DNA from: an uncultured Poribacteria bacterium
GTDB lineage: Bacteria; Poribacteria; WGA-4E; WGA-3G
NCBI GenBank assembly: GCA_951828515.1
Contig: OX639992.1
Coordinates: 3,450,217-3,514,216, forward strand
Direction: 5' to 3'
Length of the DNA: 64,000 nucleotides
The translations under genes and the position numbers were made by a program. Positions 36,077 to 60,247 of the stretch are shown here, piece by piece. Numbering within the stretch: position 1 is the stretch's first letter; the number at the start of each line of letters is the position of its first letter. Below the pieces are notes generated by a model. The model ran no database searches and was not told the DNA's origin. It saw only the letters and a program-made list of their open reading frames with translations.

Positions 36077-37288
36077 ATGCGAAACACAAAACATAAACTT
36101 TTCAAAGATAAGACGTTGCGTCACTTGCACGACGAGTTGAATATCAGTGGCGTTGTACGGAATCATTTTTTGGCACTCTCTATGCGGTATTACCGCAGAT
36201 ACGGTAAGGAGCTATCGTATTCCAAAATGTCTGCTCATTTGACGAATCTCAAGAAACTTGAGAAATACCAACATTGGAATATCCCTTACTCTTGGGCATT
36301 ACAGAATGTGCTGAAACGTCTATCACAAAGTTTCCGTGAAATGAAAACACTCGGCAGAGGACACCCTCAATTCAAGTCTTGCAAGAAACACAAAGGGATG
36401 ACGTTTGACGGCAGACAAGCCCCCCTCGAAAAAGTGTTGGATAAACAGAAACACGAAAGAAACCATCCGACGTATAAAATCCGTCTCAATGGACGCTGGT
36501 ATCGTTTCGCCCTGCACCGTCCGATAGAAGGTAAAATCACACAAGTTCACGTTACACGGGATGCCCTCGGAGACGTGTATATCACGCTCACTGAAGATTA
36601 CTCGGAAGTCAAATACGAACCCAAGACAGGTAAAGCTGAAGGGTTTGACTTTGGAATCAAAGACTTCCTGACTGGCAGTGACGGACATCCATACCCCTCT
36701 CCAATGTTCTACAAACACAACGCTGATAAGTTAGCAACCGCACAAAAAGTTCATTCCCGAAAGGTAAAAGGTTCTCATAACAGAGAGCGAGAACGCAAGA
36801 ATATCGCCCGTATCCATAAGAAAACTGCCAACCAGAGAACAGACCACCATTGGAAACTTGCGATAGAGCTGTGCCAAAAGTTTGATATTCTGTTCTTTGA
36901 AGACCTGAACCTTCGGGGTATGAAAGCCCTTTGGGGAAAACAAGTCTCTGACCTTGCTTTTGGTGAGTTCCTGCGGAAACTGAAACACCAAAGCAAAAAA
37001 CGTATCCGTTCGGTGTTGAAGATTGATCGCTGGTCTCCAACAAGTAAGTGCTGCTCTGTGTGTGGACATAAAAATGATAACCTCACGCTCGCAGATAGGA
37101 ACTGGACGTGTCCAGAGTGTCATACAGACCTCGACCGCGACCAAAACGCTGCGATGAACATTCTCAAGGAAGGGGTAGCTTCCTTTGGCTTAGGAGTCGT
37201 CAGACCGATTGTCTTGTTCAACAGGATTGTTGGCATCTCCGTTGAAGCGACCAGTCCGCTTCTCAAATCCACAAATGCTTCTGCATAA
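36077..37288 (+). CDS. tnpB: TnpB RNA-guided endonuclease
   Basis: TnpB of the IS200/IS605 group (403 aa), an RNA-guided nuclease ancestral to Cas12. The RuvC-like catalytic residues appear intact: D191 in GFDFGIKDF, E275 in ILFFEDLNLRGM, and D355 in DLDRDQNAAMNIL. The zinc finger has two pairs, CSVC (326/329) and CPEC (345/348). KLKHQSKKRIRSVLKIDRWSPTSK precedes it. A guide RNA (omega RNA) usually overlaps the 3' end of the gene and ends at the right end; the hairpin GCTTCTGCA/TGCAGAAGC at the stop codon fits. No transposase gene is adjacent, so it may be a solo nuclease. ATG 36077 lacks an obvious SD. Confidence 0.94.
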   Translation: MRNTKHKLFKDKTLRHLHDELNISGVVRNHFLALSMRYYRRYGKELSYSKMSAHLTNLKKLEKYQHWNIPYSWALQNVLKRLSQSFREMKTLGRGHPQFKSCKKHKGMTFDGRQAPLEKVLDKQKHERNHPTYKIRLNGRWYRFALHRPIEGKITQVHVTRDALGDVYITLTEDYSEVKYEPKTGKAEGFDFGIKDFLTGSDGHPYPSPMFYKHNADKLATAQKVHSRKVKGSHNRERERKNIARIHKKTANQRTDHHWKLAIELCQKFDILFFEDLNLRGMKALWGKQVSDLAFGEFLRKLKHQSKKRIRSVLKIDRWSPTSKCCSVCGHKNDNLTLADRNWTCPECHTDLDRDQNAAMNILKEGVASFGLGVVRPIVLFNRIVGISVEATSPLLKSTNASA

Positions 37289-46598: not shown

Positions 46599-46776
46599 TA
46601 CAAACGGTTTCCTTTTTTATGTGGGCATACAAATCTTGCCCTTTGCGATTACAGGATATAGGGAAATTATAGCAGATTTTCAATCCAAAATCCAGAAGAA
46701 AATGTGTCAATGCAGGGAAACCTATAGTAGGTGGGGGGCGCGTGAAGGTTAAAAATTTGATTCAGTTGTTAGAAGC

Positions 46777-46916
46777 TATAGTAAAATCGAAAAATATGTT
46801 TACAGGTCGTCACAGAACAAGAGCCGACCCCCGCTAACGAGGTGTTTTTGATGGGGTGTTTCCTTAAGGAACCTGTCCCTTGCGCTGGTGTATAAGTAAT
46901 TACGGGTTTTACTATA
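46777..46916. mobile_element. MITE, TIR TAT(A/G)GTAAAACC family
   Basis: Left end TATAGTAAAATCG and right end ACGGGTTTTACTATA are inverted repeats. The interior has a degenerate central hairpin and GTGTATAAGTAATTACG, matching other copies. It occupies most of the 351-base gap. Confidence 0.65.
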
Positions 46917-46949
46917 ATCTGTCCTAAACCCGTTAGAGGCTATCCTATT

Positions 46950-48509
46950 TCAAAAGGACGCGTTGTCCAACTGCGTTAACGACTTCTCCTCTGCATTGAG
47001 ATAGGCGTTCGGGTCATGGGACAATGCTCCCTCCGGAAGCCATTCCCAGAACGGCCCCAGACTCTTTCGTATTCGTTCCACATAGAACTGTGGAATTTCC
47101 GTGGTCTCCCCCTCAAAAAAAGGTCGGAACTGTGGGTCTGCATCCAGCCGTCTCCGTATTTCACGGTAGTACTTCAACTGCTCAAACCACGGCAAAACCC
47201 GGATAAGGTTCAGCCACCGGGCGGTGGCGTGCGGAATCGCCTTGTAACTGTTAAAGAGCGTTTGCCATGAAATGTTATGTTTAATCAGATCAATGACGTT
47301 ATCGTAGAAGGTATCCCACGTATAGTTTTTCGGCTTGATATTCATCCCACGCTTGCTGTCAAGAAAATAAAAGGGAATCGGGAGAACACGCCCCTCTTGT
47401 TGATATTCAAGATTCAAGGGGGCTGCCTGTCCGTATGAGGTCAATAGCAAATAAGCAGGATAGGCACCGGGGGTTATATCGAGGAAGTGTTTCGTAAGTC
47501 CAAAGGGTTCTGCCCCTTCGTCAATATCGAGTCCGAAGACGAAGTTGGTTTGGACGTACGGAACGTATCTCAGAATCATGTTCACCTGCTCTGAGACCTG
47601 TCGGACTTTATCAATACCGCTCTGTTTCCCTGTTTTCGATTTGTTCCCGAAGTCTTGCCAGGACTCAATCCCGGGCAACATCATCTTAAACCCGTTTTGC
47701 TTCAGCCGTTTCATGTGCGATTCCGAAAGGATCGACAAACTGCTCTCGGCGATGAAGTCTATGCTATCTGGCGGCACTGCGGCTTCGATTGCAGACAGGT
47801 AATCATCGAATCGGATACCGAAGTTGGGATCGTGCCATCCGACGAGGGGTCGCTTAAACCTCCCTAAGAGGAAACGCAGATCTGCCTTCATGACATCAAA
47901 GTCCAGGGGTTGATAGGGAACGACCGAATCAATACAAAAACTACACGTATACGGACACCCCATACTGCCGAGCATCGGCACCGCCTTAATCCACGGTGCC
48001 TTGCGGAGGGCGAGTTCTATGAACTTCCAACGCTCTTGCACACCCGGCATTGTCAAGGGTTGTCTGGCCGCTGAGAGGCGGATACCGAGAGGCCGATGCG
48101 GAGAACAGTCTCGCAACAGATCCGCAATGATGTCTCTGTCGGTGAAACCGAGAACGTAATCAAAATACTTTTGGGCATCTTGAGGATAGCAGCGAGCATG
48201 AGGCCCCCCAAGCGCGGTAACCACGCCTCTGGATCGGAAAAGGTTGCTCAAGGCGTATGCGAGTTGGGCTCCCTGTGAAAATGTTCCGATAATAACGAGG
48301 TCGAGCGTTTCGGGGAATGCCTCAATCGGATTTTCAAGACCTGTATAACAGACGAAGGTGACATCATGTCCCTCTTCTTCACACCATACGGCGATGGTTT
48401 GAGGCATGATGCTTGCCATATTAGCGTGCATTGTCCGGGTCCACAGATTTCGCGTCGGTCCTTTAGCAACAAGGTCAAGAACACCAATTTTAAGTTTTCG
48501 CACAGTCAT
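46950..48509 (-). CDS. Cobalamin-binding-type radical SAM protein
   Basis: A 519-residue radical SAM enzyme with an N-terminal B12-binding-like Rossmann fold (ETLDLVIIGTFSQGAQLAYALSNLF, VTALGGPHARCYPQDAQKYFDYVLGF) and the cluster motif CPYTCSFC (residues about 187-194). FDVMKADLRFLL, WHDPNFGIRF, IAESSLSIL, MMLPGIESW and FVFGLDID follow the usual barrel pattern. Members make unusual C-C bonds or modify lipids or tetrapyrroles; the substrate is unknown here. SD AAAAGGAGTAG. Transcribed alone on this strand after the sigma-54 activator. Confidence 0.9.
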   Translation of the reverse strand: MTVRKLKIGVLDLVAKGPTRNLWTRTMHANMASIMPQTIAVWCEEEGHDVTFVCYTGLENPIEAFPETLDLVIIGTFSQGAQLAYALSNLFRSRGVVTALGGPHARCYPQDAQKYFDYVLGFTDRDIIADLLRDCSPHRPLGIRLSAARQPLTMPGVQERWKFIELALRKAPWIKAVPMLGSMGCPYTCSFCIDSVVPYQPLDFDVMKADLRFLLGRFKRPLVGWHDPNFGIRFDDYLSAIEAAVPPDSIDFIAESSLSILSESHMKRLKQNGFKMMLPGIESWQDFGNKSKTGKQSGIDKVRQVSEQVNMILRYVPYVQTNFVFGLDIDEGAEPFGLTKHFLDITPGAYPAYLLLTSYGQAAPLNLEYQQEGRVLPIPFYFLDSKRGMNIKPKNYTWDTFYDNVIDLIKHNISWQTLFNSYKAIPHATARWLNLIRVLPWFEQLKYYREIRRRLDADPQFRPFFEGETTEIPQFYVERIRKSLGPFWEWLPEGALSHDPNAYLNAEEKSLTQLDNASF

Positions 48510-48635
48510 CTACTCCTTTTCGCTGAATTTTTCTTAAACAACCTGAGGGCAATAAAAAATAAGTGTGTTGTTAAGAAAACCCGCATCGCTGCCATCAACT
48601 CTATTGAGAGTTGCCAAAAGGCTTTATCTTCTGCT

Positions 48636-49748
48636 TCATTGCTGACAGTCCTCTGACTCTTTCCATTTTTTATATTTCTGAAGTGTACGGACATCAATAC
48701 CTAATGATTCAGCTGCCTGACGCAAGGTAGTGTATTGTTCAATACGCTTCTGTGCCACCGCACATAGAATTTGATTCAGGTTCATATTTTCGATATTCAG
48801 AGATTCGTCCTGTTCGATCGTTTTTGGCATATTTGAAGTTTGCAAGTTACGCCAAATCCCTATTGTCTGTTTTGAGAGTGCGTGGATGATTGTCTGTTGT
48901 GTCTCCAGAGGAAGTGCCTTCCATATTACATCCTGAGTGTTTGATGGAAGTGTCTGCCATATAGAGATAAGGGCTTCGTCAAGTTTTGGGTAGATCCCGG
49001 GAAAATCTTTGGGTTCGAGTATGTCTGTTGTCGCGAGAGCGACAGCCGTCTGAACTGTGTTTCTCAGTTGGCGGATGTTCCCAAGCCACGCCGCCCGTTC
49101 AAGACGTGCGAGTGCCTCCTGGGTAATCCCTGTAACGCTTTTCCCGTATTCAGCACTAAACTCGCTCATAAATGCTTCTACTAACGGCGCAATATCCTCT
49201 GGACGCTCCCTGAGCGGCGGGAGGTGAAACATCATGCCCTTAAGGCTGTAATAGAGATCTTCCCTAAACTCCTTTTCCGAAACGGCTTTGACAATATTTT
49301 TATTGGTCGCCGCAATAATGTGAACATTCGCCGTCAAAATCTCATTTCCACCCAGACGCGTGAATGCTGCTGTGTCCAAGACATGAAGGAGCATTTTCTG
49401 TGCGTCTAAAGACATTTCGGAGACCTCATCTAAAAAGATGATGCCACCGTTTGCGACTTCAAACGCCCCTCGACGTTGGCAAATTGCGCTCGTAAATGCC
49501 CCCGCTTCATGGCCAAAGAGTTCACTTGGCAGAAGTTCTGCGAAGAATCTACCACAGTTGATAGTTATAAAAGGTTGGGCGCGTCGTGGACCACTTTCGT
49601 GAATGTATCTTGCGATGCCTTCCTTACCAACACCGGTTTCGCCAGTAATGAGGAACGGAACGTTTGACTTTCCACACTGCTGGATTGTGTTGTAAATTGC
49701 CTGCATTGGTGGAGATGGCAATTGAATGAACACTGCCTGTTGTTGCAT
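48636..49748 (-). CDS. Sigma-54 activator without receiver domain, GAFTSA variant
   Basis: AAA+ enhancer-binding protein of 370 aa. Walker A GETGVGKE (36-43), Walker B IIFLDEVS (103-110), and RxxR-type sensor FREDLYYSLKGMMFHLPPLRERPEDI are present. The GAFTGA loop is GAFTSA (83-88), with Ser replacing the second Gly. There is no N-terminal sensory domain; the AAA+ domain starts almost at once. A C-terminal Fis-like HTH (TTLRQAAESLGIDVRTLQKYKKW) ends it. ATG 49748 has AAAGGAA upstream; ATG 49775 is less likely. Direct signal input is not visible, so it may be controlled by expression or by a partner protein. Confidence 0.9.
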   Translation of the reverse strand: MQQQAVFIQLPSPPMQAIYNTIQQCGKSNVPFLITGETGVGKEGIARYIHESGPRRAQPFITINCGRFFAELLPSELFGHEAGAFTSAICQRRGAFEVANGGIIFLDEVSEMSLDAQKMLLHVLDTAAFTRLGGNEILTANVHIIAATNKNIVKAVSEKEFREDLYYSLKGMMFHLPPLRERPEDIAPLVEAFMSEFSAEYGKSVTGITQEALARLERAAWLGNIRQLRNTVQTAVALATTDILEPKDFPGIYPKLDEALISIWQTLPSNTQDVIWKALPLETQQTIIHALSKQTIGIWRNLQTSNMPKTIEQDESLNIENMNLNQILCAVAQKRIEQYTTLRQAAESLGIDVRTLQKYKKWKESEDCQQ

Positions 49749-49832
49749 AATGGTTCCTTTATACCGAATTATCAACTTAATTTTCAGTTCGGAATCCCTG
49801 TCCTTACAAAAAACACAAAGAAAACATCGAAG

Positions 49833-50049
49833 TCAGACCTTTTGGTTCGGATCATACGGTGTTATGTGAAGCCACTCAAAAGTACGGGTTTTTGCATTCC
49901 ACTTGATGAGCCCCGCGTCCTGAAGATCTGCGATAGCACGCATAAGGGTCGTCCGATGCTTCACACGCCAACCTTTCTGGAAACGCATCACAACTCTCCA
50001 CAATTTTTTCAAAGGAAATGTTGTGCGATACCACTGTCAAATCCTCCAT
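49833..50049 (-). pseudogene. Frameshifted small winged-helix-like gene
   Basis: From ATG 50049 one frame reads MEDLTVVSHNISFEKIVESC; the +1 frame then continues MRFQKGWRVKHRTTLMRAI, ADLQDAGLIKWNAKTRTF, EWLHITPYDPNQKV and stops at TGA 49833. The second part resembles a winged helix. Either part alone is too short for the track of a normal domain, so a frameshifted gene is likely. A short gene from ATG 49988 alone is the alternative. Confidence 0.4.
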
Positions 50050-50083
50050 AGTTTGTGCTGCTTGTATGGGCGGCAATTATAGG

Positions 50084-50347
50084 TTAAAAATCAGTGATCT
50101 GCCATTTATGTGTGGCTTCTGGGTCGCGTCTAACTCGTCCTTCGTCCTCAAGTCGAACAAGGATTCCACGAAGAATGTAATAGTATGAGGTATTATTAGC
50201 CAAGTCGGTGCTTGGGATCCCCAACCGCTGGCTAATCTCTGCCATCGAAAGAGGGGGTTCGCCTTCGTGTTCTGCTTCAAGTAGCACGCTAAGCACAGCG
50301 TCTTTTAGAAAAAATAGCCCCAGTTCTGCGACTTCTTCGATTTTCAT
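50084..50347 (-). CDS. Small winged-helix protein
   Basis: An 87-residue protein predicted as a winged helix-turn-helix: MKIEEVAELGLFFLKDAVLSVLL, then PPLSMAEISQRLGIPSTDLANNTSYYYILRGILVRLEDEGRVRRDPEATHKWQITDF. It is probably a DNA-binding regulator of the type that switches between species and element genes. ATG 50347 has GAGGG 7 bases upstream; longer in-frame starts run into a repeat. A damaged related gene follows. Confidence 0.7.
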   Translation of the reverse strand: MKIEEVAELGLFFLKDAVLSVLLEAEHEGEPPLSMAEISQRLGIPSTDLANNTSYYYILRGILVRLEDEGRVRRDPEATHKWQITDF

Positions 50348-50497
50348 TTTTCCCTCGTTGTTATTCAGTCGTGCGGGTCTAAAAGCCGGTTGTTTTGTTA
50401 AGTTCCCCGCACAACCTGCAAGGCGCGGTTTATTACGTGATGTAATGTGTTCGGGGTTGAAAACCCTTCCACAAGAACATCTGTCACTCAATTGATC
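50348..50497. other. Short intergenic region before the MITE
   Basis: No gene seen. Together with the MITE at 50498-50651 it fills the gap between the winged-helix gene and the TonB receptor. Confidence 0.5.
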
Positions 50498-50651
50498 AGG
50501 CCTTACGCAAACAGGCGATAAATCGTCTTACTACAAACGCCATCTCTTGGAAATACCGGTGTTTCTCAAAATACGCACGGTTCGTAGTAGCGCAATTCTG
50601 CGGCGTACTCGCCCAAATGCGACGTGCATTATTGCGCCTTGCGTAAGTCCT
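50498..50651. mobile_element. MITE, TIR AGGACTTACGCA family, copy 2
   Basis: Left end AGGCCTTACGCA and right end TGCGTAAGTCCT. The interior matches the copy at 15098 (GCGATAAATCG..., TACTACAAAC, GGTTCGTAGTAGCGCAATTC) with a 30-odd-base insertion in the second hairpin. It lies 27 bases downstream of the TonB receptor gene stop. Confidence 0.8.
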
Positions 50652-50677
50652 GTTGATATTTATGGGTTTAGCGTTCG

Positions 50678-53470
50678 CTAGAAACTATACGATAACTTCG
50701 CATAATAAAGCCCGCCGTTGAAACCAAAAGGCGCAGCCCTTCTTGAATACGGAAACACACCGGATGAATCAACAATGACATGGCCCGTGCTGTCCGTTAA
50801 AGTTCCAGCACGGGACTGACTAATCTCACTGATATCGGGCATCTGGTCAAACAGGTTGTTCACACCGATAGTCAATGAAAGCCCTTCATTGAGTTGATAG
50901 TTGCTCTGGACATCGGTAAGCCATTTCCCGCCGTAAGTCTGACGTGCCGGATCGGCACCACTTCCTTCTTGAACGGTGTAGCTTCCGAAGTAGCGCAAGG
51001 CACCCCCGATAGTGAGATCGCCGATGATGTAATCCGCGCTGAAGTTAATCCGGGTGTTCGGCTGCCACTCCTCGATCATGGAACGATCCTGTGACGGGAA
51101 GAGGGTCTCCTCAAGCCCGATGAGGATTTCTGGCGCATCCACATCACCGATAACCTCGGTATCTGCCCATGTGAACGCAACCTTCAAATTGAGAATCGAT
51201 TCATTGTCGAAAGCAAACAAGTAACCTGCAGCGACATCAACGCCTTGTGTGCGAGTCTGTGCGACGTTTGTGAACGCCTGTGCACTGCTCGCCCCTGCTG
51301 CGATGAGACTCGGGATTTTATCGGCACTGAAACTGCCACTCAGAACGATACGATCATCAATTTGGATAAGGAAACCGTCTACAGTGAGCCACATCTTCTC
51401 AAACGGTTTCAACACGAAACCCCCGGAGACGTTGAATGCGGTCTCCTCTTTGAGTTCAGGGATACCGAGGGCACGTGCGGCATCGCTGTCGTTACGGAAC
51501 GTGCCGAGTTCGCGGGGTAACACTTCGGTTGTATCTCCGTCGCCATCAAGATCCGTCGCATCTACCAAGAATTGCGTGCTAATGTTATTGAAGTAGAGTT
51601 GTTGCAGTGAAGGCGCCCGGAAACCAGTGCTGCCCGCGGCCCGGACCGCAACCTGTTTCGTCACGTCATAGCGAGCCGTCGCTTTTCCTGTGACGGTGGC
51701 ACCGAAGTCGCTATACTGCTCACCGCGCACCGCTGCACCGACAAGAAGCCCTGTTCCAGGTTGTCCACTGAGATAGGATTCAAAATCAGCATACCCGGCA
51801 ATGTTCGTCCGGCTTTCGTCCACTTCATTGTCGGGTCGGAAACCGGGGAAGACTTGGATACCACCCGTGGCGCCCGGTGCCCCAAGTCCGGCGTTAATCC
51901 ATGAAAACGGTTCGCCAGCGTGGATGCCGTAGCCTTCTCGGCGGAACTCAACACCGCCTGCAAGGTTCACCAGCGAGGACTGATAGTCAAGCGGGTAGGT
52001 TACATCCAAGTTAAACGCCGTTTGCGAGAGTTCAAATCCACCCGCATCCGCGGAAGTCAGGCTACTCGCACCGTAAGAGGCGTTCAGAGAGTTGGAAATG
52101 AAAAAGTCGAATGTGTTCAAGCCGTAATTAATGCTGGCATCGACATTCAGATCGGTCGCCTCATGCGTCCATACCATCCCTAAAGCGAGAGAGGTGTCGC
52201 CAACATCTGTGTTGATTTCCGGCAGGAATCCGTCAGGATAGATGTCGGTGACAGTCCGCGAGGGCTGGTTGGCTCTGCGATAAAATCCTGCACTGTTGTT
52301 GTCGCGTGAGGAGTGTCCGCCAAAGGAATAGAGTTCTAAACCCGCAGCGAGTGGGAGTCCGAAGTTATAAAATCCGACTTTTTGAGACGAATCAGCGTCC
52401 CCAACGCGAAAGTTCTGGCGTTCAAAGGTATATTCGCGCGGATCGAACCAGACAGGTTTAGTTGTTACAGTCCCATCGTCATTTTCGATTTCAAGCATCT
52501 TATCCGGGGGTCTGCCTTGATCGACATCTATCCAGTCATACTGCCGTTCGCCTGTGAGACCTGCACGATTGGTGCGTTTCCGATCGCGCCATTCAGCAGT
52601 GAGATTGAGGAACCCGGAGTCACCGACTTTCATGCCGTAGTTGGCGTTCCCGCTCCGTGTATCGCCATCGCCTTCGTAGGTTTGCCCCCAATAAACGTCA
52701 GCATCGCCTGTATTAACATCGTCTTTCAGCACAATATTGATGACACCGGCGATGGCATCGGAGCCATACTGTGCCGCCGCACCGTCTCGAAGGACTTCAA
52801 TCCGCTCTATCGCCGCCGCCGGAATCGCATTGAAGTCTGTGCCAGCAGTGCCACGTCCTACCGACGTGTTTACGTGCAGCAATGCACTTTTGTGGCGACG
52901 TTTACCGTTGATGAGCACAAGCGTCTGGTCGGGCCCCAAGCCGCGCAATGTCGCCGGACGCAGGGCATCTGTGCCATCGCTAATGCTTGAACTTGAAAAA
53001 TTGAAGGAGGGGACTAACATCTGAAGGACGCGACCGGTTTCGGATTGACCGATAAGGCTGAGCTGTTCCCTGTTAACGACTTCTATCGGAACGGGGGCCT
53101 GCAAGGCTTGCCTGCCTATACTCCGGGTTCCGACGACCACAACGGATTCAATCGTTTGGATGGGAGCAAGTATCACTGTGGCTTCGGTTTGCCCCACGGT
53201 GGTATTGATGCGTTTATTTGAAAATCCGATTGCTATTACAGTCAGCGACTGTGCGCTTGTCACGTCGCTAAACGTAGCAGTTCCAGATTCGTCGGTTATT
53301 TGTTCCTGGTTTCCAATTTGGACTTTTGCTTCTGATATAGCGTTCCCATTTTGGTCTTGAACGACTACCTTGAGTGCATCAGCACTGACAGCCATTGGTA
53401 TCACTGATGCAATACCTAATAAAATAGCAACAATACACCAGAAATACCGTTTATTATCTGAAATTAACAT
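50678..53470 (-). CDS. TonB-dependent outer-membrane receptor
   Basis: A 930-residue receptor. Signal YFWCIVAILLGIASVIPMAVSA; then an N-terminal carboxypeptidase-regulatory-like domain (LKVVVQDQNGNAISEAKVQIG ... TVIAIGFSNKR); the plug (IESVVVVGTRS, PVPIEVVNREQLSLIGQSETGRVLQMLVPSFNFSSSSISDGTDALRPATLRGLGPDQTLVLINGKRRH, IPAAAIERIEVLRDGAAAQYGSDAIAGVINIVLK) and a 22-strand-type barrel ending in YYAKLSYSF. It would import a large or scarce ligand with energy from TonB. No substrate enzymes adjoin, so the ligand is unknown. Confidence 0.96.
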   Translation of the reverse strand: MLISDNKRYFWCIVAILLGIASVIPMAVSADALKVVVQDQNGNAISEAKVQIGNQEQITDESGTATFSDVTSAQSLTVIAIGFSNKRINTTVGQTEATVILAPIQTIESVVVVGTRSIGRQALQAPVPIEVVNREQLSLIGQSETGRVLQMLVPSFNFSSSSISDGTDALRPATLRGLGPDQTLVLINGKRRHKSALLHVNTSVGRGTAGTDFNAIPAAAIERIEVLRDGAAAQYGSDAIAGVINIVLKDDVNTGDADVYWGQTYEGDGDTRSGNANYGMKVGDSGFLNLTAEWRDRKRTNRAGLTGERQYDWIDVDQGRPPDKMLEIENDDGTVTTKPVWFDPREYTFERQNFRVGDADSSQKVGFYNFGLPLAAGLELYSFGGHSSRDNNSAGFYRRANQPSRTVTDIYPDGFLPEINTDVGDTSLALGMVWTHEATDLNVDASINYGLNTFDFFISNSLNASYGASSLTSADAGGFELSQTAFNLDVTYPLDYQSSLVNLAGGVEFRREGYGIHAGEPFSWINAGLGAPGATGGIQVFPGFRPDNEVDESRTNIAGYADFESYLSGQPGTGLLVGAAVRGEQYSDFGATVTGKATARYDVTKQVAVRAAGSTGFRAPSLQQLYFNNISTQFLVDATDLDGDGDTTEVLPRELGTFRNDSDAARALGIPELKEETAFNVSGGFVLKPFEKMWLTVDGFLIQIDDRIVLSGSFSADKIPSLIAAGASSAQAFTNVAQTRTQGVDVAAGYLFAFDNESILNLKVAFTWADTEVIGDVDAPEILIGLEETLFPSQDRSMIEEWQPNTRINFSADYIIGDLTIGGALRYFGSYTVQEGSGADPARQTYGGKWLTDVQSNYQLNEGLSLTIGVNNLFDQMPDISEISQSRAGTLTDSTGHVIVDSSGVFPYSRRAAPFGFNGGLYYAKLSYSF

Positions 53471-53904
53471 TTAGTTTCCTTTATTATGGTGAATTCTAAC
53501 AATATGGTAAAACCTATAAACAACGTGAGTTGAATAATAAAAAATCGGATGTAACCGTAGGTTGGATTGAACAAGAATGCATCAAAAACTGTCGAGAGCA
53601 ACCGACTTGAAGCATTCAAGAAACCTCATATTACCAAAATCCGAGTGAAACCCAACACATTCTTGCTGAAAGCGGTTGGAGCGTTGGGTTTCGCTATATT
53701 TCTCTACACCGCTGACCCATTGAAAGACAGAACTTCTATAGAAAACCCGTGAGGCTTCGGCTTTTACCCCTCAACCTTGGGGAAATACGCAGAAGGGGAA
53801 ATCCGTAGAAATACGCAGAAACACCCTATCAATACGCAGAAATACCCAAGCAAAAACTCCTACGAGAACTATATTCTAATACCGAAGCTGCTGTTGTAGG
53901 CACA
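53471..53904. other. Repeat-rich intergenic region upstream of the TonB receptor
   Basis: No gene supported. A TATGGTAAAACC end at 53503 is a MITE-end fragment. A hairpin AAACCCAACA...TGTTGGGTTT-type (GAAACCCAACAC at 53649 with GTTGGGTTTCGC at 53683) resembles 6016-6062. The stretch 53790-53850 repeats ATACGCAGAAA units and contains CCCAAGCAAAAACTCC. Confidence 0.55.
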
Positions 53905-54051
53905 GTTTGATGAAGATTAAAAAGTTAATTCGGTAATTTCTTAGGGCAGTCCGGTGCGGTTGCAAACCGTGAAGAAACACCCTATCAAAAACCCTACCGG
54001 GCCTGGGGGCGAATTAGAATTACCGATTTAAATAATTAAACTTCATCAAAC
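53905..54051. mobile_element. 147-bp element with long imperfect TIRs
   Basis: GTTTGATGAAGATTAAAAAG at the left end is the inverted complement, with mismatches, of the right-end arm ending CTTCATCAAAC (54041-54051); the match extends over about 40 bases (TCGGTAATT... ...AATTACCGA). No coding capacity; a different MITE family from the others here. Confidence 0.65.
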
Positions 54052-54088
54052 CTCACCTACCGGATTCCAGCTATCCTATGGTCATTTG

Positions 54089-54921
54089 GTAGGGTAGTCG
54101 TGTCCCCTCACGGAGACACAACCCCCTCCGAACGATGCGTGCGACTTTCACCGCACATCGCTCTCCAGTTCAATTTGACGTAAAAGATACGCTTTAGGTA
54201 GTGCTACCACTTTACTTCAGTCTTAATATTAAACCTACACCTTTTCGGCGATATTAGGTATTCTTAAGGCTATTTCAAGAATTGAACCTGATTGGGCTTT
54301 GCCAAAGGCTTTTTCCAATCTCCTCAACCCTGCCAACTTGCGTAAAAAAACTCTCGTTTACAAGTTAGTTTAGGTTCTGTCTAACTTCCTGTAAAGAGAC
54401 TTCATAACTCATGTAGGGTCGCCCTATATCCCGATAAACACTTATTGTGCCTTGTGCTATTTGTTCCAGTTTGTGAAAATACTTTTAGATTTTCACAATT
54501 GATGTAATAAAGAGGAGTTACACCCTATAGCACTACAACTCTTGCGTTTCGCTCAAGGCTGTTGTATTGGAAATTACGAGACTTACAGACGTTCAACTTT
54601 CGCTTACCCTTGTGAGTCCTGTCGGACGCTCCACTTTTGAACGTTAGCATTATTACTAATGCTAACTTCGCCTGTGTTCTTAGGAGTGCGCCATTTTTTC
54701 TTGCTTCCCACGTTAGCGTTTCCCCTAACGCAGTTAGAGTAAGACATACATTGCTGGACTCATGTAGAGGTATCATAACCTCATTCCCTTTACGCTTGTT
54801 AGACCGCACCCTCTTGCTTTCCACGCTGTCGTTTCCTATAGCGCAGTTAGAGTCAGACATACATTGTTGGGCTAATGTAGTGGATTTGCACCACATTCCC
54901 TATGCCCTTGTTAAACCGCAC
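54089..54921 (-). mobile_element. ORF-less group II intron
   Basis: The minus strand begins GTGCGGTTTAACAAGG (54921) and ends in CTACCCTAC (54089), as group II introns begin GTGYG and end AY. Domain V is canonical at 54163-54130, with an AGC triad, 34 nt length, 2-nt bulge and a GAAA-capped stem; domain VI follows. There is no intron-encoded reverse transcriptase. The 5' part exists in two diverged copies (GTGCGG starts at 54921 and 54809). It is inserted 4 bases after a stop codon of a sorting-domain relic. Confidence 0.8.
54130..54163 (-). ncRNA. Group II intron domain V
   Basis: On the minus strand GAGCGATGTGCGGTGAAAG then TCGCACGCATCGTTC. Lower stem GAGCGATG/CATCGTTC, 2-nt bulge, upper stem TGCG/CGCA and a GAAA tetraloop. 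This matches the consensus secondary structure in length and key positions. Confidence 0.85.
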
Positions 54922-54924
54922 ATA

Positions 54925-55068
54925 CTATTTCCGTATTAGCATCTTGCGTGTTGCCATGAAATTGCCTGCGGTGAATGTGTAAAAATAGAGACCACTTGCA
55001 ACAGGTTCACCCAGTTCATTTTTCCCATCCCGATACGCCGCACGACAGGTATATAACTGCTTGAGGAA
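54925..55068 (-). pseudogene. C-terminal sorting-domain relic (first)
   Basis: One frame reads ..QLYTCRAAYRDGKNELGEPV, ASGLYFYTFTAGNFMATRKM, LIRK then TAG. This pattern (G-EPVASGLYFYT ... TRKMLIRK) is the C-terminal strand-rich sorting or FlgD-like domain common to secreted proteins of type IX-like systems and Poribacteria. Upstream sequence is decayed in other frames. The stop is followed after 3 bases by the group II intron. Confidence 0.6.
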
Positions 55069-55211
55069 TCATATCGTCGGGAACAAAGTAGGGAATCCCG
55101 AATTGTGTTCCGACCTCGAATTCAGTTGCCAGGGCAAGAAGTATAGGTGAGATATGCGTCCCACCCCTGTAGGGGTGCTTTGTAAGCACGCTACGAGGTG
55201 GGTTCAAATTG

Positions 55212-55332
55212 TTACTTCCGTATCAACATCTTCCGCGTCACAGAGAAATCGCCAGTTGTGAGTGTATAGGAATAGACCCACTCGCCACAGGTTTGCCGAT
55301 ATTATTAATGCTGTCTCTGTAGGCGGTACGGA
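55212..55332 (-). pseudogene. C-terminal sorting-domain relic (second)
   Basis: Part reads GKPVASG in one frame, then with a one-base shift VYSYTLTTGDFSVTRKMLIRK and TAA 55212. It is a second, frameshifted copy of the sorting-domain ending seen at 54925. No full-length parent gene remains. Confidence 0.6.
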
Positions 55333-55358
55333 CCCTGCTCTGATTGGATGCGAACTTA

Positions 55359-55547
55359 TCAACTTTGCTCATATACGCCCTTGAAACTGTCATGGTTGTA
55401 GTAAGCTATAAATCCCATTCTTTGTATAACAAAGTTATAAGCCTGCTTTGTTAGTTTTTCCATATCATTACTTTCAAGCACACGAGCAATTGAGTTTTTA
55501 ACTCGCTTTAATTTTGCTTTTGTATAGTCAGATGTTTACTCACTTTT
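55359..55547 (-). pseudogene. Unrecognised small gene fragment, frameshifted
   Basis: After SD GAGGAGATAAAAA, GTG 55547 begins MSKHL, but the long open part is in another frame: DYTKAKLKRVKNSIARVLES, NDMEKLTKQAYNFVIQRMGF, IAYYNHDSFKGVYEQS then TGA 55359. The composition looks coding. The family is not recognised. Confidence 0.4.
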
Positions 55548-55556
55548 TATCTCCTC

Positions 55557-55676
55557 AGGACTTACGCATGCTGCTCTTTTGTAGCATAAACTGTTAGTTT
55601 GTGTCAGGGGTATGAGGCTTATTTTCGGGCATCCCCATCTAATAAAGCGTGCCACGGTCAAAACTGCGTAAGTCCT
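55557..55676. mobile_element. MITE, TIR AGGACTTACGCA family, copy 3
   Basis: Perfect 12-bp inverted ends AGGACTTACGCA/TGCGTAAGTCCT. The interior differs from copies 1 and 2, so only the ends are shared; it may be a different subfamily moved by the same transposase. It ends exactly where the FGE fragment is interrupted. Confidence 0.8.
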
Positions 55677-55971
55677 ACTGATTAAGAACTTGTTCCATCT
55701 CAAAAATTAACTCATTTTTTCGGTTATTCCCCATAAAACTTCTATGAACAGGTGGGTGTTCGTTTCCCCAAGAAAACCTAGCTTTATCAAGCCCGCCCCG
55801 CGCGGCTTTCTCCCATTCCGCCTCTGTCGGTAATCGTTTTCCAACCCATCTAGCGTATGCCTTAGCGTCCTCTACTCGTACAATAGCAGGATGTCTTTCG
55901 TTTCCGAATAATCTATCTCCAATAATCTGTTCACAGTAATTTTTTCCCTTTAATTTATCTAACTGAGGGGT
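55675..55971 (-). pseudogene. Truncated formylglycine-generating enzyme fragment
   Basis: One open frame of 99 codons includes GNERHPAIVRVEDAKAYARW, VGKRLPTEAEWEKAARGG and FSWGNEHPPVHRSFMGNN. This is the HPVVxVSWEDAxAYAxWxGKRLPTEAEWEYAARGG core of FGE-sulfatase enzymes. The 3' end is cut by the MITE, whose first bases provide a TAG stop. The C-terminal catalytic half with the active-site Cys pair is missing. It is therefore not functional. Confidence 0.75.
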
Positions 55972-56707
55972 TCAGAAATAAAGTTGCGATGTGTCACGAT
56001 GATGGATATCCTTCAATGAAAACCAAAACATTCAAGGCGTATCCGAAAAATTTCCTGTTTTTTTATTCATCACAAAATGGATTTTATATTATAAATGATT
56101 TTAAGTCAATATATGTACTTATATATTTATAAAAATATTGTCGTAGTATCATTAAATTACGCCGAGTGTTGACCATTTTGTCAAAATTAAAGCTAAAAAA
56201 CCACCTAATTTGCTCGGAAAAGGACGTAATTCTATCTTTTTATGAAAAAACGGACTCTTTTAGGAAGTGCTGGAATTGAGGCGTTGGGAGTTGGTGTGTA
56301 TATTTTTTGATGATCCGTGATTTATTACGGATACTAACGAAATGTATTGGAAGATATGGCACGCTTCTCTCCATCGTACCACCTGCGAAGTATCACCTAC
56401 AATCTAAAGTTAGGCGTAACCGCGAAGCATCTATTCCATCAGCCACAAAAAATGATATAAGACAATCAGAATATGATAATTTATTTACAAAATATGTCCT
56501 GATATAATTTCTCTGAAGCCTTGCTGCCATTGACTTCGTTAGTCTAATAACCTTGATTAAAAAATAGGACTTATGATATTATATAATACTAACCTGACTG
56601 GAGAAAAGGTCTGATTTACTTGGAACAGTTGTTATTGGAACCATAATCTATTCAGAACGGCTGATAGAAGAGTGTCCATCTCTGATTGAGCAGATAGGCT
56701 AAGAACA
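55972..56707. other. AT-rich region upstream of the 1138-residue gene
   Basis: Clearly richer in A and T (56070-56170, runs such as TTATATATTTATAAAAATATTG) than its neighbours, which may mark acquired DNA. A weak reading frame at 56307-56507 lacks an SD and recognisable protein, so I do not call it. No clear promoter was identified for the gene at 56708. Confidence 0.55.
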
Positions 56708-59700
56708 ATGAATGCTTTGAAAGATATTATTCAACGCTGCCACCAACGCCGCAACAATCCACTTCGGCAGCGGAGGACTGTGTTAGTCCCTACGCTGTAC
56801 GATAAGAATTCCCCTTATCAGTTCGCGGTCTATTGTGCCCATAGACACCGCATGCTGCTTGCCGATCTGGAGCAGGCAGATATTTCCTTTATGCCGATAG
56901 GACGTGCGCCTCATCATGACCGGAGTCCCAGAAAATTTGGCGGTGATCCGTTCTCAAAACGCCAAGGAATACAAAAGGCAAAAAGCGGGCAAATCAGACT
57001 ATGGCATTCATCATGGGGAATTGAGGTGTATACGGGTATTCCTTCCGAACGCGATGGCTCACGATGGCATGACCTCGATTTTAAATACGAGGCACTCTCT
57101 GCCGCACCGGATGCCGTTTTTACCTGTATTGAGACGCTCATCAACGCCGTCGCGAATCCGCTGTTGACGATTTCAAAAGAGGGTGGGCTGCGTTTCTCAT
57201 GTAGGGTACCAGATTACCTACATCCGAATGCCGCGCAAGAGCGATTATACATCTACAAGCACATACCGACTTCGGAGGATCCGCACCAACGAGATGTGTA
57301 TCTTGAAATCCTTGGAGAAGAAGGAGCCAGCAGCTGGGACACCCGCTACGAGATTCTGTCTGGAAATCTTTTAGAGCCACCCGTCATCGCGAAAGAGATA
57401 CTCTTTGGGCCTATTGACGCGCTCCGTGCCGCGCTCCACGAACCTACCTCGCTTGGAGAAAAGAAACTGAAACCGACGCTTATAGATCCGCCACTGTCTC
57501 TCGGTTCACATCACCTCGATCTCGCAAAAGAGGCGTTTTTGAAGCGCGATTTTTCTTATATTCGAGAAAAGGAGGGTCTTCACCACTGGATTCCATCAGG
57601 CAGTAATAGTGCTGATGGATATGTATCGCTATGGGAGAGCGATGACACTGTGTGGATACGAGCATCTACCTCTAACACCGAGCTGCCCACGGATGCCACG
57701 TCAATTACAGATGTCTGGGACGATACAGGCATTTTACCACCGATACCTGCTACTGGACTACCTATCTCTGAGGAGATGCTCGCCGTCCGGGAAGGGAGAT
57801 TGAGTCCGTTGGCGATAAAACGTTCGCCTCCGGTGCTGCAGAAGTCAGAATCCGCGAGAAGGGTTTACGGGATACCAGAAGGAAAAGCCCCTCAGATACG
57901 ACGTATTTTTGATGAGAACGTGCGAATTCTCGGACTCATTACCCAGACAAGCACGGGGAAAAACTATGAAGCGGAATCCTATGTTCTCAATAGCGGGACA
58001 ATTTGCATAAACGTGCCACCCGTCATAGCAGGAGAAACAGAGAAACGTTTTCAAGAGCGAAATGTGTCGTCGGTTGCCCACTGGAGACATCGGATGTACC
58101 TGTGGGATCAGGTGAAAGAGATACCTGTTGATGTCCGCATGGCAAACCCTTTTCAATACGGGAATGTCTGTGAGGATCCGGAGCGGTGTTCCGCGCTGGA
58201 GGAGAAAGGCGGAAATCCGAGTGAAAGCATCTGTCCACAGTGTCCTGTCTATTCGGAATGCCAGCAGCGCGGTTATCTATCGCAACCTACCGCCTTACAA
58301 CACGCCAAGGCACAGATATCAACGACCTACCAACTCTTTTATAATCCTTACAGCACCGAGGCTTTGGAAGAAATACTCGGACAGGACGATCAAACACAAC
58401 GGCTTTGTATTCTCGATGAGACGCATGCCCATGAACTGTTTCTCAAATGTCAGCTATCAAGAAACATATTGCGGGAGTGGCGTGTCAACTGGGAAGGGAG
58501 TGTATTGGGGAATTTCGCCGAAGCCCTCCTGAATGTCTTGGAGATCAACAACAGATCCCATGGTGATCTGGTCAAACGGGTTCGGACAACACTGCCAACG
58601 TTTCAATGGCAGGAGGCAGCTCTCGTTGAGCAGATGTGCCGCGTGAAGGTGTGGGGTAAGGTAGTGACGCGCGGGATTGTTGATGATGAAACCGGTCGGG
58701 TATTGGCACGCTTTACCATTGAGTTTGAAGGGGGTGCCTTTGCTTACATTCCATTGGATAATGAGGCTATGAATGTCCTGACAGCAAAGAGACTGCCCTT
58801 CTTTTCTCTCCACTCTTTTATGCTAAACGAGCCTATGAAAGTCCCGATGCCGATGGCGCAAGTCATTCGGTTAGGCATTTTGGATGCGGCAACTGTCCAG
58901 AACATTCAGGAATTGCCAACTGTCTGTCAAAATCCAGACTGGACGTTTTGGCACCAACTCAAGCGTTTTTTTGCTTACTACACCCGAGATGCCGACGCAC
59001 CGATGTTCTGGAATGGTGAAATGCTGCATTTCTGGGTACCGCCGATGTTGCACTCGAGTATCAAACGTCTTCTGTTAATATCTGCTACCCTCTCTGATCA
59101 ACATCTCCATAAAATATTTCCAGATGACAAAGTTGAGGTCATTCGCTCCGACCCCATGGAGTGGGTCGCAGGAAACCAGATTTTTCAGATTCGTACAGGG
59201 ACCTATCCATTAGAAATAATTTTGGACTACGAAAGTAACTGGGACGTTATTGGGCTGTCTAAAACCGGACAACGCTTTTTTGCGGGTATCGGTGCAGAAA
59301 TTGAGAGGGATCCGAGCGTTAAGCATGGGATTGTGACCTATAGGGGTAGTGTTCAACGTCAGTTGGCGTCCATCGCTGAAAAAGAAAACGTCTGCTTCCT
59401 AACGGATCAGAAAAACACAAGAAGGTTTCAGACAGATTTTGAGGCAGCAGACGTTATATGGATAGTCGGTATCCCGCGATGGGCACCCTACATCATTTGG
59501 CGGTGGACACAGATATTGTTTGGAAACGACGCGAAACCCCTCTGTTATGAGAAAGAAACAGAGTCTGATCGCTATAAAGATGAACGGGTCCAGAGTGTTT
59601 ATGAAGAGAGTGTGATTGGCTTTCTGACACAGACTATAGGACACGCGAGATTACATCACCTCGCGGGCAAGAAAATCGTGCTGATCACGAGTTTTCCAGT

Positions 59701-60124
59701 GCCTGACATCACGGACCGACCTGAAACGATTCTTTTTGACTGGGAAGATTTTGAGATTGCGGGCGGGCTTGACAAACTCGTCGAAGTGGTAGAGATACGC
59801 CAGCGTTTTGAAGCAGAACGTGACAAGTTAACTGCCGAATCCAGTAGAAAAGAGGTCGAGCGCGTTTTGGGATGTTCGGCAAGACAAGCCAACCGGACGT
59901 TGCAAAGACTCCGGGGCGGGAAACTACTCCGTATCCCGTTCCGTGAGCAACTCCTCGCTATCCTTGCTGGCGGCGAGAGAAAAACGGCTGAACTGATCGC
60001 TGATATTAAAGGACACCCAGAGGCGATAAAACATGAACTCACGCGTCTTGTGGACACCGGTGAGATTGTGAGAGTTCGACGTGGGGTGTACGCCCTTCCA
60101 AAAGCATCTCTGTCTAAGGAGTAA
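56708..60124 (+). CDS. Large primase/helicase-like protein with winged helices
   Basis: An 1138-residue cytoplasmic protein. In the N-terminal part, HDLDFKYEAL (121-130) and SKEGGLRFSCRVP (156-168) suggest the DxD and SxGGxH-type motifs of AEP primase-polymerases, the second with Arg for His. In the middle, TSTGKN (414-419) looks like a degenerate Walker A; Cys 488, 494, 509, 512 and 518 resemble an iron-sulfur cluster; DETH (570-573) is Walker B; SATL (792-795) is motif III; QTIGHAR (975-981) is motif VI-like. This is the XPD/DinG helicase order. Two winged helices end it (about 1045-1135). It could be a mobile-element replication protein or a defence factor. No SD precedes ATG 56708 and no partner genes adjoin. 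Confidence 0.75.
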   Translation: MNALKDIIQRCHQRRNNPLRQRRTVLVPTLYDKNSPYQFAVYCAHRHRMLLADLEQADISFMPIGRAPHHDRSPRKFGGDPFSKRQGIQKAKSGQIRLWHSSWGIEVYTGIPSERDGSRWHDLDFKYEALSAAPDAVFTCIETLINAVANPLLTISKEGGLRFSCRVPDYLHPNAAQERLYIYKHIPTSEDPHQRDVYLEILGEEGASSWDTRYEILSGNLLEPPVIAKEILFGPIDALRAALHEPTSLGEKKLKPTLIDPPLSLGSHHLDLAKEAFLKRDFSYIREKEGLHHWIPSGSNSADGYVSLWESDDTVWIRASTSNTELPTDATSITDVWDDTGILPPIPATGLPISEEMLAVREGRLSPLAIKRSPPVLQKSESARRVYGIPEGKAPQIRRIFDENVRILGLITQTSTGKNYEAESYVLNSGTICINVPPVIAGETEKRFQERNVSSVAHWRHRMYLWDQVKEIPVDVRMANPFQYGNVCEDPERCSALEEKGGNPSESICPQCPVYSECQQRGYLSQPTALQHAKAQISTTYQLFYNPYSTEALEEILGQDDQTQRLCILDETHAHELFLKCQLSRNILREWRVNWEGSVLGNFAEALLNVLEINNRSHGDLVKRVRTTLPTFQWQEAALVEQMCRVKVWGKVVTRGIVDDETGRVLARFTIEFEGGAFAYIPLDNEAMNVLTAKRLPFFSLHSFMLNEPMKVPMPMAQVIRLGILDAATVQNIQELPTVCQNPDWTFWHQLKRFFAYYTRDADAPMFWNGEMLHFWVPPMLHSSIKRLLLISATLSDQHLHKIFPDDKVEVIRSDPMEWVAGNQIFQIRTGTYPLEIILDYESNWDVIGLSKTGQRFFAGIGAEIERDPSVKHGIVTYRGSVQRQLASIAEKENVCFLTDQKNTRRFQTDFEAADVIWIVGIPRWAPYIIWRWTQILFGNDAKPLCYEKETESDRYKDERVQSVYEESVIGFLTQTIGHARLHHLAGKKIVLITSFPVPDITDRPETILFDWEDFEIAGGLDKLVEVVEIRQRFEAERDKLTAESSRKEVERVLGCSARQANRTLQRLRGGKLLRIPFREQLLAILAGGERKTAELIADIKGHPEAIKHELTRLVDTGEIVRVRRGVYALPKASLSKE

Positions 60125-60247
60125 CGTCCTCAGTTGAAAATTCTGTTCTACGTGTGATGATGTAATGATGTAATAATATGTTTGACACCAATCCGATAAA
60201 TCGCATAAAATTTCAGGTACGAGAAACCAGAGATTGGAGGGAAACCG

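Follow-up and report, generated by a model that had tools for sequence, protein, structure and literature searches.

A multi-copy primase-helicase family of Poribacteria chromosomes with repeatedly lost ATP sites and a likely origin in element replicases

We identified a chromosomal family of AEP primase-helicase proteins in Candidatus Poribacteria that reaches 12 copies in a single genome; its members have repeatedly lost the ATP site of the helicase, and their primase, Fe-S-like and DNA-binding parts are under selection. We favour, with about even confidence, the explanation that this is a lineage-specific, multi-copy family domesticated from the primase-helicase of an integrative plasmid, and that it consists mostly of motor-dead primase/DNA-binding proteins. 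Such a family would be a natural experiment in the use of a primase-helicase without its motor, and opens a defined gene family to testing in a widespread phylum of uncultured symbionts. Poribacteria are symbionts of sponges, as is also apparent from isolate names; a literature search returned no paper describing the family. One member, the window gene, lies in the 64,000-nucleotide stretch of DNA analysed here, hereafter the window.

Domain architecture of the window protein

The window gene is a single open reading frame of 1138 codons (56708..60124, forward strand, as are all features of the gene given below), in agreement with the initial annotation. An AlphaFold2 model of the protein (pLDDT 84.1, pTM 0.77; 56-row family alignment), together with the intact frame and full-length relatives, identifies it as a fusion of an AEP primase, an XPD/DinG-type helicase and winged helices. 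The AEP primase-polymerase domain (aa 39-247; 56822..57448) has as its best match, in the top row of VIA-align, the pRN1 ORF904 structure 1rni (Z 12.4, rmsd 3.5, 177 aa). The SF2 helicase core (aa 386-1027; 57863..59788) matches XPD/TFIIH and DinG chains at Z about 9-11, mostly over 420-490 aa (XPD 9pd3_B, Z 10.9 over 487 aa; 4a15, Z 10.5), and Foldseek independently ranked XPD first for the same model (4a15, E 4.9e-8). Two winged helices follow at the C-terminus (aa 1041-1131; 59828..60100), the second of them AbiEi-like (PF13338, aa 1100-1131, E 1.2e-6), and the last 60 residues resemble winged helices with Z up to 9.9. The initial annotation had proposed from motifs an AEP primase, a helicase of XPD/DinG order with a cysteine cluster, and two C-terminal winged helices; the predicted folds, the Foldseek ranking and a PADLOC typeIV_DinG match of a Walker-A-intact relative (L024, aa 393-805, E 1.8e-7) indicate that these domain calls were right, with both the primase and the helicase fold recovered.

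The full architecture is as unfamiliar as had been supposed: Pfam, NCBIfam and PHROGs recognise nothing beyond the last ~32 residues, the AEP domain has no Pfam match, and sequence searches of the PDB gave no convincing match. That the gene stands well beyond chance follows from full-length relatives, about 60% identical, in dozens of genomes, and from the fold matches to a primase-polymerase and to XPD. Two viral proteins in BFVD, A0A1P8DJ66 (1085 aa, E 5e-11) and A0A1B1IQ42 (953 aa, E 6e-9), match the window model over long stretches, and from these predicted structures are possible phage relatives of the same layout.

The sequence motifs on which the initial annotation rested are all in place. 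AEP motif I is D122-L-D124 (57071..57079), with D122 present in 98 of 99 family members. Alignment with a Pfam Prim-Pol protein (L121, motif 'NNGFHCRYR') places motif II at SKEGGLRF (aa 156-163; 57173..57196) and the motif III acid at E200, within YLEILG (57305..57307); D211, an earlier candidate for this acid, was dropped after the same alignment. The acid triad D122, D124 and E200 is therefore complete in the window copy. Position 162 of motif II is Arg, not the usual AEP His, both here and in all 99 members. According to PMC5862659, certain AEP families have Gln or Tyr at this position and the DR0530-like family has Arg or Lys; thus, Arg162 alone does not imply an inactive primase.

In the helicase core, the Walker A motif (TQTSTGKN, aa 412-419; 57941..57964) was correctly described as degenerate, its TSTGKN part lying at aa 414-419: it falls outside the canonical pattern [AGS]xxxxGK[ST], and on its failure at GK[ST] the window protein is not classed as a working helicase. 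Five cysteines (C488, C494, C509, C512 and C518; 58169..58261) form a cluster that, from cysteine conservation and fold, would hold a putative Fe-S cluster. Helicase motif II retains its DE (DETH, aa 570-573; 58415..58426). The motif III-like SATL (aa 792-795; 59081..59092) and motif VI-like QTIGHAR (aa 975-981; 59630..59650) are poorly conserved in the family, and the latter lacks the first Arg of the consensus Q..GR..R; its intact counterparts read QAIGRAR in L144 and QAILRLR in L152.

Distribution of the family and loss of the ATP motor

All 62 family loci found in the public genome set belong to Candidatus Poribacteria, and strong matches within the phylum come from only two genera of one family, two further genera of which have zero copies. 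Nine copies, of which two are adjacent, lie in the window genome (5.85 Mb, one contig). In other complete or near-complete genomes the count is 12 (two split pairs each taken as one copy), 11 (including one fragment), 5, 1, and 1 with a further truncated copy; most genomes surveyed are metagenome assemblies. Thus the window gene, which had been called solitary, is so locally, with no replication or defence neighbour, but not across its genome. The proteins fall into size classes of about 1130, 1007, 905-980 and 772 aa, and two genomes (G021 and G028) have clusters of four that combine two copies of the 772-aa class with two full-length copies. We found no relatives in viral contigs or plasmids; the protein L117 was likewise absent from viral contigs, and its matches in phages were limited to the AEP part.

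Motif conservation was scored in 91 distinct members, with some residue counts taken over 99. Canonical Walker A is kept in 16 of the 91 and the DE of motif II in 26, compared with 50 that keep the AEP acid triad (D122, D/E124 and an acid at 200), and both Walker A and triad are intact in 11, so that some members may be full enzymes. Among the 99, position 124 is D in 40, E in 25, H in 15 and N in 10, and position 200 is Glu or Asp in 90. Cys 488, 509 and 512 are present in all 82 members that have the Fe-S region, and Cys 494 in 79. Of the motif residues listed in the initial annotation, D122 and Cys 488, 494, 509 and 512 are conserved; the listed helicase motifs do not belong to the conserved part. 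Mean identity between paralogues is 0.64 in the AEP domain, 0.73 in the Fe-S domain, 0.74 at aa 1002-1040 and 0.63-0.66 in the winged helices, and is lowest, at 0.38, in the half of RecA1 that contains Walker A. Conservation is poorest in the helicase motor, the reverse of the pattern expected from a working helicase.

Counts on a single FastTree topology, with loss assumed to be irreversible, give 12 losses of Walker A for the best tree and at least 8 with weakly supported nodes collapsed; the corresponding figures for the AEP triad are 17 and at least 15. The 772-aa class is missing the P-loop and the cysteine cluster. Its model (pLDDT 79.5) retains the AEP fold (Z 10.7) and a winged-helix fold (Z 10.5), and XPD is absent among the 50 matches listed, although a remnant of the core may persist.

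These patterns bear on two alternative functions. The proteins could be chromosomal PrimPol-like primase-polymerases for repair or fork restart, selected for AEP activity and using the helicase core as a DNA clamp. The AEP domain is indeed among the best conserved, its triad survives in 50 of 91 members including the window copy, and chromosomal, fixed loci would suit such an enzyme; yet at least 15 losses of the triad have occurred, strong selection persists in a clade whose position 124 is His, and 1-12 copies would be odd for a housekeeping repair enzyme, so that we consider this explanation rather improbable. We also regard it as unlikely that the proteins regulate transcription or chromatin through their C-terminal winged helices alone, with the remainder kept as a relic or dimerisation body. 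The AbiEi-like wing and the good conservation of the winged helices (dN/dS about 0.1) would fit, but the AEP and Fe-S domains are conserved at least as well, and upstream regions contain neither a family-wide motif nor a shared operator beyond orthologous sets.

Selection and fixed loci of ATP-dead clades

We estimated dN/dS by a counting method on sequence pairs, in a set that lies outside the window copy, whose nearest relatives are about 61% identical. A clade in which the P-loop has become GIGPWD, and which is thus ATP-dead, has dN/dS of 0.13 (bootstrap 0.12-0.15), with 0.10 in its RecA1 part. The value is 0.17 for the ATP-dead 1007-aa class, 0.35 (0.24-0.49) for the 772-aa class, which has no P-loop, and 0.26 for a Walker-A-intact clade. 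Neighbours are fixed as well: a gene for an ECF-sigma/M61 fusion follows the GIGPWD clade in all six loci whose flank is long enough, and argG adjoins the 1007-aa class in four of four. The low dN/dS and these fixed neighbours indicate that the ATP-dead clades are maintained genes, not debris. At one locus of the GIGPWD clade, this neighbour (L041:11555-14521) joins an ECF sigma factor to an M61 aminopeptidase region.

Decaying pseudogenes, whose motifs vanish for want of selection, are accordingly very improbable. Motif loss is widespread and truncated copies occur in two genomes (G082 and G028), but most copies are full-length open frames, and for the clades tested pseudogene decay is refuted by dN/dS of 0.13-0.17, and of 0.35 in the shortest class.

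Clustering of neighbouring genes gave no partner that recurs across family loci. Second in size among the neighbour clusters, with 28 loci, is one that chains WD40, Ig-like and sigma-fusion proteins, which we assume to be common in these genomes, except for the ECF-sigma fusion fixed to one clade.

The window locus

In contrast to the clades at fixed loci, the window copy occupies a variable island. The island (46720..60177) spans 13.4 kb and also bears radical-SAM, sigma-54 activator and TonB-receptor genes. One relative (L165) lacks everything between about 46,720 and 60,178, and its junction there is almost seamless; three others (L158-L160) have gaps of about 90-100 bp at this position, and three more (L161, L168 and L173) have other inserts of 3-4 kb. 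The MR_MLE-SIS-NadD block downstream is 86-96% identical in seven relatives, all of which are missing the gene, and the window copy has no close orthologue in the genomes searched. The initial annotation had asked whether homologues sit in variable islands: the window copy does, and the two clades at fixed loci do not. Transposition of a gene-sized unit was considered for this locus and rejected, the insertion being the multi-gene island.

As first described, the gene stands beside an AT-rich stretch, which is full of dispersed repeats, with no replication or defence partners among its local neighbours. Within the 3.2 kb upstream lie gene fragments together with dispersed repeats some 120 bp long; the neighbouring genes are metabolic, TonB and sigma-54 activator genes, with MR_MLE next. 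No initiator or integrase gene lies beside the window gene, nor an AbiEii toxin gene next door, and the AbiEi likeness is limited to a 32-aa wing of a protein that is not short.

We noted several further features of the window. The AT-rich non-coding region 53471-56707 includes dispersed ~120-bp repeats (54923-55046 and 55557-55676), each with about 15 further matches in the genome, and a 72-bp direct repeat pair (54699 and 54812). A 43-nt inverted repeat (53896/54060) also lies upstream of the window gene, and a decayed fragment resembling a formylglycine-generating-enzyme domain is found at about 55650-55950 on the reverse strand. A TnpB/OrfB gene of IS605 type is located at 36077-37288 (forward strand), and similar ORFs occur in four of the other loci examined.

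Element-type relatives and origin

We additionally identified, in the same genomes, element-type relatives (L152, L128, L153 and L154) with intact Walker A, DE and motif VI. L152 (1048 aa) has motif I TDLDF, motif II SGGLRYSCR, Walker A PAQTGKT, the Fe-S cysteines, DEPNP and QAILRLR, and adjoins a Dam gene; L153 adjoins a Rep3 initiator. L154, an intact fusion of a BT4734-type AEP domain and an Fe-S helicase, lies in an integrated plasmid (G018:C61, 3-11229) with a Rep3 initiator, a tyrosine (phage) integrase, an N6/N4 methylase and ParA. In the tree, a fully supported split divides the chromosomal family from L152/L128/L153. Since this outgroup has intact motifs and lies in an element context, the likely direction of descent is that the chromosomal family was captured from a plasmid or element replicase. 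An intermediate form (L144, on the 3.7-kb contig G014:C32) combines a zinc-ribbon-like insert with GTGKN at Walker A, QAIGRAR at motif VI and a C-terminus of HTH_23 type.

The initial annotation had offered a replicase of a degenerate element as one possibility, which fits the likely ancestor but not the chromosomal copies, with their fixed loci in several clades, usually lost ATP site and lack of element genes. For the family as a whole, a replicase of a selfish or dying mobile element is quite unlikely: element-type relatives exist and the window copy lies in a variable, repeat-rich island, but family members have no integrase, initiator or recurrent element genes alongside, the island boundaries take in unrelated genes and not a gene-sized unit, and ATP-dead clades are under purifying selection with fixed synteny.

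Proposed role

Under the favoured explanation of domestication, an integrative-plasmid primase-helicase would have been captured by the Poribacteria chromosome, and most members would no longer need the ATP motor, serving as DNA-binding bodies independent of ATP. The AEP palm, Fe-S-like domain and winged helices may hold DNA, and perhaps prime it, with the old helicase core as a scaffold; priming would be possible where the AEP triad is intact, as in the window copy. Since the ATP motor has been broken repeatedly and the primer-making and DNA-gripping parts kept, the proteins probably serve something other than DNA unwinding. Our favoured guess at the benefit, suggested by the family's likely origin in element replicases and its occurrence alongside them, is interference with the replication of related mobile elements, whose replicase the family resembles. 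More specifically, though with low probability, captured and motor-disabled plasmid replicases could be immunity proteins that stop related elements from replicating by occupying their origins or forks. Intact element replicases and chromosomal copies showed no mutual exclusion, and genomes with the former usually carry both.

Comparison with known systems

The fold of aa 39-247 resembles pRN1 ORF904 and the Prim-Pol AEP primases found on plasmids and in phages (PF09250), and the family shares motif order and a RYEI..G.L..P.I segment with the Prim-Pol protein L121. It differs from PF09250 in the motif II Arg in place of His, in a family-specific W-D-x-R in place of GGyaV.PPS, and in an AEP domain without a Pfam match. 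An Arg or Lys at the motif II His is shared with the DR0530-like AEP family (PMC5862659), a comparison that concerns this residue only.

The helicase core, with two RecA domains and an Fe-S-like insertion, has the fold and cysteine cluster of XPD/DinG Fe-S helicases, including the DinG of type IV-A CRISPR systems; in contrast to these, most members have a degenerate Walker A and motif VI, and the core is fused to an AEP domain. A single-gene defence protein, the other possibility raised in the initial annotation, may or may not describe the family: PADLOC gave only the AbiEi wing and a DinG match in one relative (L024), and no recurrent partner gene turned up. TOTE conflict proteins combine an AEP-TOTE domain with an SF2 helicase and a nuclease; Pfam gives no match between the window protein and the AEP-TOTE domain.

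Bacterial AEP primases are nearly always found within mobile elements, according to PMC5862659. The paper describes AEP-helicase layouts comparable to ours in the element replicases All3500 and PrimQH; PrimQH includes a winged helix, and All3500 has remote SF2 helicases in some cases. In the sections used for this comparison, the descriptions of these two families include neither an XPD/DinG Fe-S core nor a chromosomal, motor-dead, multi-copy family.

The closest counterparts are the Poribacteria replicases of the L152/L154 type, whose helicase core is homologous to that of the family; in L152 the homology extends to the N-terminal domain, which is about 37% identical. They differ from the chromosomal family in their intact ATP site, zinc-ribbon-like insert, other C-terminal HTH and element neighbours.
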